From contig NW_003120436.1 in NCBI RefSeq assembly GCF_000003605.2, positions 27,531 to 50,724 on the forward strand: a stretch of DNA of 23,194 nucleotides. The letters run 5' to 3'. The notes under the pieces are model-generated. The model had not been told where the DNA came from and did no database searches. It saw only the letters and a list, made by a program, of their open reading frames with translations. This DNA is from Saccoglossus kowalevskii (Eukaryota; Hemichordata; Enteropneusta; Harrimaniidae). Position 1 is the first letter of the stretch; every line of letters begins with the position of its first letter. This document shows, piece by piece, positions 911 through 22,690 of this stretch. Made by a program: the position numbers and the translations under genes.

Positions 911-1185
911 CCATTCATAATTTTTATTGTTAAAAAATATATCTTTCACAGACTTTGTCATGAAATAAGCACTTTTATCTCGCTGTGCATGTGCAATTAT
1001 TAATAGCAACCAAATAAAGAAGATATATCCAAAAATTTCACGCATCAAAGCGTACATCTTCTTGACTCGAATCTTGGCTTCTTTACTCTGGTGTACTAAT
1101 TCTTGAGTTGGTGGAAAGTATTTTTCATTTTCAGAACGAAGTTTTTCAATTTCTTCATGTCTATGATGTAGTTTATTCCAGTCAT
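911..1185 (-). CDS. Exon 18: cytosolic linker and TM6
   Basis: This 275-nt exon has acceptor ATCATCTAG and donor GAATGG|GTAAGT. It enters in phase 1 and leaves in phase 0. The split codon G|AT makes Asp with any of the upstream tandem donors. It encodes DDWNKLHHRHEEIEKLRSEN, then KYFPPTQELVHQSKEAKIRV, the helix MREIFGYIFFIWLLLIIAHA (TM6) and QRDKSAYFMTKSVKDIFF. R-E-(I/L)-x-x-Y-x-x-F-x-x-L-L-x-x-(V/I)-A-x-x-x-RD-x-x-A(F/Y) opens the channel-like half of polycystin-1 proteins. The following exons lie beyond the left edge. Confidence 0.95.
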
Positions 1186-1980
1186 CTAGATGATAAAACA
1201 AGATGTGAATTTTAAGTAGTTCTGAATCAAATTAAACAATTATATAAGCACACATTCCCAGCAAAAACGTTGTTTTAATCAAAGAAAGCTTAGAAAGAAC
1301 CACTGCAATGAAAGAAAACCAAGTACACTTACCAACATTAACTGGCAAGGTACACTTACCAACATTAACTGGCAAGGTACACTTACCAACATTAACTGGC
1401 AAGGTACACTTACCAACATTAACTGGCAAGGTACACTTACCAACATTAACTGACCAGGTACACTTACCAACATTAACTGGCCAGGTACACTTACCAACAT
1501 TAACTGGCAAAGTACACTTACCAACATTAACTGGCAAGGTACACTTACCAACATTAACTGGCAAAGTACACTTACCAACATTAACTGGCAAGGTACACTT
1601 ACCAACATTAACTGACCAGGTACACTTACCAACATTAACTGGCAAGGTACACTTACCAACATTAACTGGCAAGGTACACTTACCAACATTAACTGACCAG
1701 GTACACTTACCAACATTAACTGGCAAGGTACACTTACCAACATTAACTGACCAGGTACACTTACCAACATTAACTGGCAAGGTACACTTACCAACATTAA
1801 CTGACCAGGTACACTTACCAACATTAACTGGCAAGGTACACTTACCAACATTAACTGACCAGGTACACTTACCAACATTAACTGGCAAGGTACACTTACC
1901 AACATTAACTGACCAGGTACACTCACCAACATTAACTGGCAAGGTACACTTACCAACATTAACTGACCAGGTACACTTAC
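1186..1980 (-). other. Intron 17 (length depends on donor used)
   Basis: Taken from the first donor, the intron is 795 nt. From the last of the 25 donors it would be only 147 nt. The acceptor is TTTATCATCTAG. Read-through past the whole array continues in frame to a stop near 1232, so full intron retention would truncate the protein before TM6. Confidence 0.85.
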
Positions 1981-1990
1981 CAACATTAAC
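1315..1990 (-). repeat. 27-bp minisatellite, 25 units, each a splice donor
   Basis: On the gene strand the unit is GGTAAGTGTACCTTGCCA plus GTTAATGTT. There are 25 tandem units, with donors starting every 27 nt from 1980 to 1332. Twenty-four carry GGTAAGT and one (third from the exon) carries GGTGAGT, which is also an acceptable donor. In the gene frame the array is open and encodes VNVGKCTLP or VNVGKCTWS. The array begins at the exon-intron border itself and includes the last codons of exon 17. The two unit types alternate strictly over the first 12 units next to the exon. It fills most of the 795-nt intron. Confidence 0.97.
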
Positions 1991-2077
1991 TGGAATTTCA
2001 TCTACTTCCTCACTCCCATCATCATCAACATCCATTGATTTCAAAAACAAAGCAACAAATACTGCCACGAATAGTAC
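1981..2077 (-). CDS. Exon 17: end of TM5 and acidic cytosolic loop
   Basis: This 97-nt exon, when spliced at the first donor, has acceptor GAATTTACAG and donor GTTG|GTAAGT. It enters in phase 0 and leaves in phase 1. It encodes VLFVAVFVALFLKSMDVDDD, then GSEEVDEIPVNV. QPL(N/K)-VL-x-x-A-x-F-x-A-L-x-L-K across the exon 16-17 junction is a signature of polycystin-1-like TM5. The donor is the first of 25 tandem near-identical donors, so the 3' boundary may vary in steps of 27 nt (down to about 1333). Confidence 0.93.
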
Positions 2078-3579: not shown

Positions 3580-4659
3580 ATTCAGCGGCTGGTCCACAAA
3601 GATGCTTTCAAAAAGCGAAATAAACATGGATATCAACCAATCAATAGATTTTTGTTTGCCGTAACTGAGTCCATAAAGCATGACGAAATAAGCCGACACC
3701 ACACTTGTGCAGAAAACCAAAAACCAACCAACATAGACAAACCACCACGGTAACCAAAAAGAACAACTGCATTCTCTTGTTTTATTTTTAATGCCTTCGA
3801 GAACCTCAGAATGAGTACTCTGTGTCGGGAATTCCATATGGCAATCATATTTCGCATAGTCCACAAATTTTTCTTGGCTTTTTCGTATTCCTCCTCGGAT
3901 TCAAACTTTCCAGAATCTCGTTTCTCTATAAGTTCTTCATTAAGCTGTTGGAATTTTAAAATTATATACTCCTTGTAGCCAACGTTTAGCTCTGTCATGC
4001 TAGCTGAACTGTGATACGATGCAAAGGTCTCATTTGACTCCTTTTTAGAAGCAACCTCCAATGAGCTTGAAGATGAGAATTCAAAGTCGTCTGACATGAG
4101 AATTGAAACTTCCTCGTCGGATAACATGTCTATACTGACGTCTTCCACGTCCAGATGCTCTGGTACTTGTGTGTCTGTAGAATGGGAAGATTGTTTCTTT
4201 GGTTTACGTCTAGCATATCGGAAAGTCTGTACGATGATAATATTTATCGGAAGAACAATAATACCACTTTGGACACCTATGATCAGTTGTTGCCATGAGA
4301 ATGCAAAGACACCGAAGTCCATCTTCTGACTATTTGGATCTTCTGGTATACCATAAAACATGATATTTGCCAACATAGTGCAAAGGAGCATGGACAAACA
4401 GCAAGATAAACGTTGAAGACGAGTAAAGTGACTATGCGCTGGACATCCTATTATGGAAAACCACAGGTGACGATCGCGGAGATCTTTAGCGGTCTTAGCA
4501 ACAAAAAGATGATTGAACTGTTTCAAGTCGTGATCTGTAGCCGTGTTAAAGAACTTATCAACTAATCCGTCATCAATGTCTACAGCCAACCATGTGTTAC
4601 ACAAAAAATACCAACGTTCGTCTGTTTCTAGGTCATGGACCATAATGTGACCAACAAAC
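3580..4659 (-). CDS. Exon 16: end of PLAT, TM2-TM5, with an internal -1 frame change
   Basis: This 1,080-nt exon has acceptor TTTCTATTTAG (completing Trp, phase 2) and donor CTGAAT|GTAAGT. It encodes the end of PLAT (HIMVHDLETDERWYFLCNTW), TM2 (LSCCLSMLLCTMLANIMFYG), TM3 (LIIGVQSGIIVLPINIIIVQ), then an acidic Ser-rich cytosolic loop and a coiled-coil-like helix. After 3866 the family sequence continues only in the -1 frame: LPWWFVYVGWFLVFCTSVVS (TM4), SYGKQKSIDWLISMF and SLFESIFVDQPLN (TM5). The first frame stays open to 3633 but loses homology and would leave the donor out of phase. The new frame has stops just upstream (3942-3937 and 3903-3901), so the change lies between about 3900 and 3800. 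It may be a deletion, an assembly error or recoding. Confidence 0.93.
3864..3870 (-). other. A AAT TTG heptamer in -1 slippery-site phase
   Basis: On the gene strand the codons AAA AAT TTG contain A AAT TTG (3870-3864), which fits the X XXY YYZ rule for -1 ribosomal frameshifting in the incoming frame. Slipping here would give Lys-Phe-Val-Asp and enter exactly the frame that carries TM4 and TM5. The same A5T3 run is also a typical place for a one-base sequencing or replication deletion. I could not establish a downstream stimulatory RNA structure by eye. Confidence 0.4.
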
Positions 4660-21423: not shown

Positions 21424-22546
21424 CAGAGTCCCTCCACAACCAGTTATGAAACGCTATTGTCAAAAGGTGTGAACGAGCTTAGATCGAGAAACAGTGCGTG
21501 TTTCAGCCTTCCAGCTGAAGTTATGACGTCATAGTTCACGCTGAAGTGCTCACACTGAGGTCGGTCGTTGGTCGAGTCAGAGAAATCAACGTAGTGTAAT
21601 AGTTTCTTCAAATATATTTCGTAATTGACGCTATTATTCGAGTTTATTTAGTTGTCAGGAACATCTTGAGTGAATATTAGGTTGTGTGTGTCGTTTTTAT
21701 CCGAGGTATCAAATGATTTGTGACTGGGAACTTCAGGGGCAGTTTTAGAATCGGTCATTGCATTTGTGTTATGACGATGTCGGTAGTTTTGACCTAAATT
21801 GTTGACACTTTATCGAATATATAATGATAATTTTTCGAATTATTTTAAAATTGAATAGGATTTTACCAGGTTAATTAATTCAGTTTATTGCATTATAGGA
21901 CATATATTAAAATTGAAATTGTTTATTTCGCAACTCGTTTGTTTTTTTGTGTGTAAAACAAAATGGCTGCCACTCGGTAGATCGGTTTCATTTTCAAAAC
22001 GTCGTGATTTCGTAGCTGATTATATACATATATTCATCAATACTTACTGATAGACAGTAATGCTAGTTTTCTGCTCAAATTTATTCTTATTTTGTGTATA
22101 TTGTTTCCTGAAACGACAGCGATTTTGTATAGTCGCCCGTCATTGCTTCGTCCACTGTTGGCTCGTAATCTAAATTAGACTCTACATCACGGCTTTCCTC
22201 CTCTAAATCTGATGGCCAATCAACATTTTCATCGTCAAAATCGACGAAATCATCGTAGGATTTTCACATTACAGTAATATTTTAGAGTGATCACGGAAGT
22301 AAAAACTATGTTGACACGAATGAAAACATTGAAAGTACGCATGCGCACTAAAGAAACGCAATGCTTTGTGGGAGAAATTACATCATCGAATATGCTAATT
22401 TTATGTTAATGTTGGGGAAACGTCCGTATTTTACCGTTGGCAAAATAAACAACGATTAAGCTGTTAAATAAACAACGGATTAACCGAAACACGCATTGTA
22501 ACAATAGATATCTGACTGTTTCATAACCGGTTGTGGAGGGACTGTG
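21424..22546. mobile_element. Non-autonomous or decayed DNA transposon with 29-bp TIRs (hAT-like ends)
   Basis: The ends are inverted copies. Left: CAGAGTCCCTCCACAACC followed by AGTTATGAAAC. Right, read inward on the minus strand: CACAGTCCCTCCACAACC followed by GGTTATGAAAC. That is 27 of 29 matching. The 7 bases GTTGAAA stand directly outside both ends (21417-21423 and 22547-22553), which fits a 7-8-bp target duplication. The flanks are themselves tandem repeats containing this string, so the duplication is not independent proof. A CAGAG/CACAG start and an 8-bp duplication would suit the hAT superfamily. The 1,123-bp interior is too short for a full transposase but holds one acidic 58-codon frame. 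Confidence 0.8.
22087..22263 (-). pseudogene. Acidic 58-codon open frame inside the transposon-like element
   Basis: Between a TGA at 22266-22264 and a TAA at 22089-22087 the minus strand is open for 58 codons. The product is strongly acidic (19 Asp or Glu) with segments such as SYDDFVDFDDENVDWPSDLE and DYEPTVDEAMTGDY. It lacks an in-frame ATG near its start. Composition and balance look more protein-like than the surrounding AT-rich DNA. It may be a remnant of an N-terminal exon of the parental transposase or a captured gene piece. No family is recognised. Confidence 0.3.
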
Positions 22547-22690
22547 GTTGAAACTATACCAGTGTCACTTGACTTTTGAGACTGGTTGAAATTATTCTAG
22601 TATCATTGACTCCCTAGACTGGTTGAAATTATTCCAGTATCATTGACTACCTAGACTGGTTGAAATTATTCCAGTATCATTGGTGTCCTA
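22547..22690. repeat. 37-38-bp minisatellite, right arm
   Basis: The core GGTTGAAATTATT recurs with its GTTGAA at 22547, 22585, 22622 and 22659, so the period is 37 to 38 bp. The linker is of the type CCAGTATCATTGACTCCCTA. It is the same family as the array at 21303-21423, and the two arms are separated by the inserted element. Confidence 0.88.

Follow-up and report, generated by a model that had tools for sequence, protein, structure and literature searches.

A 27-bp minisatellite across an exon-intron border of a polycystin-1-like gene carries a 5' splice-site sequence in each of its 25 units

In amphioxus, minisatellite-like duplications of exon-intron borders have been named 'mirages'. 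The name comes from the Adh3 gene, and such duplications have also been described in globin genes (PMC3087553). In the part of that paper which deals with BflGb6, two haplotypes, with 6 and with 3 units, are reported, and its authors state that the Adh3 data and their own RT-PCR suggest that regular splicing is undisturbed (PMC3087553). Troponin C (TnC) and PGBD5 are cited as further mirage cases in a passage of PMC3902484. Two other papers on repeats concern, in outline, repeats within an exon (PMC7536079) and the intronic VNTR of ABCA7 and splicing (PMC5954066). Beyond the papers cited here, no report of a border repeat with one donor per unit was found at the level of titles and the beginnings of abstracts.

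We analysed a stretch of DNA of 23,194 nucleotides (the window, to which all positions refer), whose minus strand carries a polycystin-1-like gene. Two REJ matches (E 8.2e-15 and 1.5e-19) and a PLAT match (E 1.2e-15) lie in order on this one strand, and the gene can be aligned with paralogs. Exon borders were inferred from GT-AG signals and protein similarity, without annotation. For the membrane-helix exon fragments of the gene no Pfam matches were obtained, and exon 911-1185 gave a weak PDB match to the S1 region of polycystin-2 (E 0.19). The repeat array lies in what we take to be the TM5-TM6 loop. An earlier note on this DNA had assigned the gene to the polycystins and the array to this loop, both of which are borne out by homology. 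On the 5' side of the gene the window reaches the end of the contig, and contig bases 1-27530, on its 3' side, are N. At ~3790-3880, the exon that precedes TM4 switches frame once, which points either to an error in the sequence or to a defective copy of the gene.

The array consists of 25 tandem units of 27 bp, when units are cut downwards from 1993. Tandem Repeats Finder (TRF) reports it at 1323-1993, with period 27, 24.9 copies and 94% matches; the span of 1315..1990 given in the earlier note was thus much the same. Unit 1 comprises 13 exonic and 14 intronic bases and therefore spans the exon-intron border, its initial 13 nt being the final 13 nt of exon 1981-2077. GGTRAGT is present on the minus strand in all 25 units, as GGTAAGT in 24 of them and as GGTGAGT in one, the third donor at 1927. 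Only four of the 27 columns vary, and the last unit, at the edge, holds two of the variant letters. The period is 3 x 9, and each of the 25 donors exits in phase 1, the phase required by the exon that follows: the acceptor ATCATCTAG sets the start of that exon at 1185, and its first two bases complete the codon G/AT. The frame of the gene is open through all units of the array, over 1232-2089 from one stop to the next. That the exon border is itself the repeat unit, that every unit keeps a strong donor, and that period, open frame and donor phase agree had all been recognised in the earlier note, and our analysis confirms these points. In its own genome, the array was seen at a single place. 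The antisense strand is an open frame as well (1248-2138, 296 aa, with VHLPTLTGK repeats), a by-product of the unit. Immediately past the array there is a pyrimidine-rich, acceptor-like sequence, and splicing to it from any array donor would lead to a stop (Table 1).

Table 1. Coordinates of the array and of the neighbouring gene features in the window (a slash marks a splice cut)
Feature	Position	Strand	Basis or remark
Exon before the array (exon 17 of the earlier note): end of TM5 and acidic loop; length 97 nt, start phase 0, end phase 1	1981..2077	-	Acceptor TTTACAG/GTACTATTC
27-bp minisatellite, consensus CCAGTTAATGTTGGTAAGTGTACCTTG	1319..1993	-	One TTG/GTRAGT 5' splice-site sequence per unit
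First donor, GGTAAGT, cut 1981/1980, inferred to be canonical	1975..1981	-	102 residues to RD, paralogs 101, 101, 101
25th (last) donor, GGTAAGT, cut 1333/1332	1327..1333	-	By arithmetic, its use would extend the exon to 745 nt and shorten the intron to 147 nt
Intron from the first donor, 795 nt	1186..1980	-	GT-AG reading
TTTTCTTTCATTGCAG, possible cryptic acceptor immediately past the array	1303..1318	-	Sequence inspection; gene frame stops at 1234-1232
Next exon (exon 18 of the earlier note): end of loop, TM6 (S1 of the channel module)	911..1185	-	Donor GG/GTAAGT; weak polycystin-2 match

A short tandem repeat that spans the border of a coding gene and places a splice signal in each of its units resembles the amphioxus mirages. 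We consider it likely that the array is a mirage minisatellite, a large one and in frame, and that the canonical mRNA is made from donor 1. Evidence for the second part comes from the length of the encoded segment. Six other polycystin-like loci were found in the genome, four of which were aligned (L010 and L011 were omitted because their exon borders are unclear). If donor 1 is used, the segment of the window gene that runs from the exon start to the conserved RD behind TM6 measures 102 residues, and the equivalent segment has 101 residues in each of three paralogs; that of L017, counted from ~4 residues inside, has 96. Use of donor 2 would give 111 residues (by arithmetic), and use of donor 25 would give 318. 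The loops share little sequence similarity, which makes the agreement in length informative. By this measure, donor 1 is probably both ancestral and canonical, and the other 24 look surplus. The earlier note had proposed that splicing could use any of the donors, which finds no support here, as the paralog segment length points to donor 1. The paralogs also bear on the origin of the intron. Three of the four have a phase-1 intron in this loop, about ten residues further on (borders read by eye), and L007 has no loop intron. The intron of the window gene, therefore, need not derive from the array, and intron gain by tandem duplication seems to fit this distribution poorly.

The core sequence of the donors does not discriminate between them. 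The 5' end of the genome's U1 snRNA reads ATACTTACCTG at all four loci listed, and the pairing energies with U1 of the three array donors that were computed are -11.7 to -11.8 kcal/mol. This near-identity means that the core favours none of them, including donor 1. Two other donors of the window gene pair with -8.0 kcal/mol each, and a third with -11.9 kcal/mol. In the predicted fold the unpaired fraction ranges from 0.11 to 0.39 across the 25 donors; the first donor stands at 0.27 and the last, the most paired of all, at 0.11. Such values are weak evidence. The fold of the first units has a z of -3.54. The first donor is favoured by the order in which the sites are transcribed and by the size of the resulting exon, which is 97 nt for donor 1 and 745 nt for donor 25. 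Duplicated donors, in experiments of Reed and Maniatis and of Eperon, reportedly showed preference for the intron-proximal site when all sites were occupied, which would favour late donors. If all sites of the array were bound by U1 and the last ones preferred, most mRNAs would carry ~216 extra residues, spliced over a compact 147-nt intron. However, the segment would then measure 318 residues instead of 101-102, and the last donor is the one most paired in the weakly informative fold. We regard this outcome as very unlikely. The U1 snRNA genes themselves were matched at least 42 times on three contigs, with 42/42 scored above the family cut-off; those at L066-L071, on contig C876, form a tandem array with a spacing of ~790 bp.

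With 25 U1-type sites within ~0.65 kb, the array could also act as a U1-binding platform that guards the transcript against premature polyadenylation, an option put forward in the earlier note. There is, however, little to protect: the intron from donor 1 measures 795 nt and contains no AATAAA and one ATTAAA. Furthermore, six other polycystin-like loci (L007-L011 and L021) have no repeats of period >=10 in the ~3-kb stretches around the loop that were run through TRF. We consider the platform extremely unlikely.

How could 25 donors be retained without loss? The units themselves indicate that the array is young. The first 12 units, on the gene side, alternate strictly between TGG and TTG forms, and a run of this length was seen in 58 of 20,000 shuffles. 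Over the first 24 units, the identity between units at lag 2 (0.973) is higher than at lag 1 (0.940). Both observations point to a recent amplification of the gene-side half by 54-bp dimers. Concerted evolution of the units is evident from the small number of variable columns (4/27) and from the dimer periodicity. The growth of this young array thus took place at least in part through 54-bp dimers, and its youth explains the retention of 25 donors without selection. Within the array there is indeed no support for selection on the donors. One of the four variable columns falls inside the 9-base donor, where the probability of one or fewer is 0.59 by chance, and 16 of the 27 7-mers of the unit equal or exceed the donor 7-mer in retention. 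The mean retention of 7-mers is 0.84 per copy, compared to 1.00 for the donor, and the single donor change, GGTGAGT, is still a donor. Among nine other donor-bearing arrays of the genome with one clear unit, donor retention is 0.43-1.02 per copy. The 25/25 of the window exceeds eight of them (0.43-0.82), the ninth being a short array with 6 donors in 5.9 copies. Selection on the donors could also account for this excess. The earlier note had called the full retention unusual. This holds in so far as the value lies above those of eight of nine other arrays; it does not hold in so far as the array is young and homogenised, its donor does not surpass the remainder of the unit in retention, and similar border repeats are known in amphioxus.

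Protein-level selection on the repeat has left no sign either. Three of the four variable columns are nonsynonymous, a share close to the 58 of 78 expected for random single changes that create no stop. The open frame through the array is not rare, since any one frame is open in 54% of shuffled units. When repeated, the consensus unit is open in two of three sense and in two of three antisense frames, and the prior for a period divisible by 3 is about one third.

These results bear on whether the array gives rise to a ladder of splice products, in which several or all donors would be used, 0-24 additional nine-residue blocks would enter the TM5-TM6 loop and repeat number would be polymorphic. 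The donors are in phase, free of stops and equal, those three that were computed pair equally with U1, and their retention exceeds that in eight of nine other arrays. Furthermore, the tandemly arrayed splice sites of human UBC give rise to a product ladder (PMC10809524). However, the UBC sites are dual-specific AGGT, and the consensus unit of the window contains no AGGT, so the array is not of the UBC type. The paralog length is matched with donor 1 only, later donors extend the exon to as much as 745 nt, and the repeat shows no sign of protein-level constraint. In addition, the amphioxus border repeats are reported without splicing disturbance in the relevant passages of PMC3087553 and PMC3902484. 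A ladder therefore appears unlikely. Likewise unlikely is its wider form, that copy-number mutation and stochastic choice among 25 equivalent in-frame donors together make the cytosolic loop that precedes the polycystin channel domain vary in length, both between individuals and between transcripts.

Repeats of 675 bp are open to assembly errors, and the real array might be shorter, longer or absent. The apparent frame switch in a nearby exon indicates that the sequence is not beyond doubt. The variant pattern among units is, however, non-random and the flanks are clean, and we hold an assembly artefact to be highly improbable.

To see how the array relates to others in the 572-Mb genome, a pattern of three GGTRAGT motifs at short spacing was counted. 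It had 2597+2995 matches vs 4585+3894 for the reversed control (matches overlap), and thus there is no genome-wide enrichment of donor arrays over the reversed pattern. At 13 of 14 loci picked from the matches listed (about the first hundred places, on contigs up to C401), the TRF consensus unit contains GGTRAGT. The main units at these donor-bearing loci are 19-49 bp long and occur in up to ~100 copies, and one locus is a messy mixture of units. Minisatellites with a donor in the unit are common in this genome; the start of an array at a real exon border is not. A second mirage was looked for as an open frame running into any of 14 donor-bearing arrays outside the window (at 13 of the 14 loci; L064, which is all array, was omitted), four of which have N upstream. 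None was found: six upstream peptides, from 5 of the other 10 arrays, yielded no Pfam match (0/6), a weak test. Viral contigs contained no relatives, and eight loci fetched for other reasons (25.5 kb) contained no repeats of period >=10.

The window itself is rich in arrays: seven have a period of at least 10, five of these a period of at least 27. The window gene looks like a local minisatellite hot spot. A second minisatellite at 1-828, with 27.2 copies of a 30-bp unit (87% matches) and truncated at the window start, sits in the next intron, ~80 nt past the donor of exon 911-1185. Its unit carries only a weak donor-like sequence, GGGTAAAT, with a U1 pairing of -6.2 kcal/mol. A 37-bp minisatellite at 22545-22682 starts some tens of bases past a possible exon donor. 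Perhaps, then, three arrays of the window gene lie near the 5' ends of introns.

A mirage minisatellite with donor 1 as the canonical site could have arisen as follows. The 27-bp border segment, 13 exonic and 14 intronic bases, would have been duplicated in tandem, and slippage or unequal exchange would have raised it to 25 units, some of them added as 54-bp dimers. Growth would have proceeded into the intron, with the original exon end and the first donor left intact. Donor 1 would be joined to the exon at 1185 to give the canonical mRNA, and the remaining 24 donors would leave with the intron. If a later donor were used now and then, the sole effect would be nine-residue blocks added to a flexible loop; with a period of 27 and an open frame, such an allele would be easy to tolerate. 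We infer this mutational route, and also that donor 1 is the site mostly used and that array length is polymorphic. For the main transcript the array is most likely neutral, and the neutral expansion listed in the earlier note is the best supported of its three options.

The array may be regarded as a natural experiment on 5' splice-site choice. It offers 25 sites that share phase and neighbours and have a near-identical core; what sets them apart is chiefly how far they lie from the start of the exon and from the acceptor. The choice made among them bears on whether the first-transcribed site, with exon definition, or the intron-proximal site is preferred in vivo.

The host of the array is probably not amphioxus, in which mirages were reported, a point against the mirage reading. 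Border-spanning minisatellites may extend beyond that group. On a mitochondrial contig of the genome (C4830), COX1 lies on the opposite strand to COX2 and ND1, the latter two recognised by eye. Its COX1 has ATA at nine sites, several of which are usually isoleucine, and leaves AGA and AGG unused in 515 codons. Amphioxus mitochondrial genomes are not known to have this gene layout and codon use.

Three described systems come close to the array. The amphioxus mirages of Adh3, BflGb6 and BflGb9, as far as portions of PMC3087553 and PMC3902484 describe them, likewise span a border, have splice signals in many units and show concerted evolution. The globin mirages differ in that their units measure 150-160 bp and that not all copies have splice signals, whereas the window array has 25 units with a donor in each, all in frame. 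Adh3 mirage units are given, second hand, as 10-72 bp in the same passages, compared to 27 bp here. UBC resembles the array in having a splice site within an in-frame unit and in that unit number can vary by splicing; its coding monomers, however, are 228 nt long and their AGGT serves as donor or acceptor, a motif that the window unit lacks (PMC10809524, in part). Finally, the variable internal tandem repeats of human segmental duplications share border units of minisatellite size and can alter splicing, to judge from part of PMC2812944. With units of ~30 bp and about four repeats on average, they can form new introns between paralogs, whereas the window repeat grew into an intron that was probably already present.
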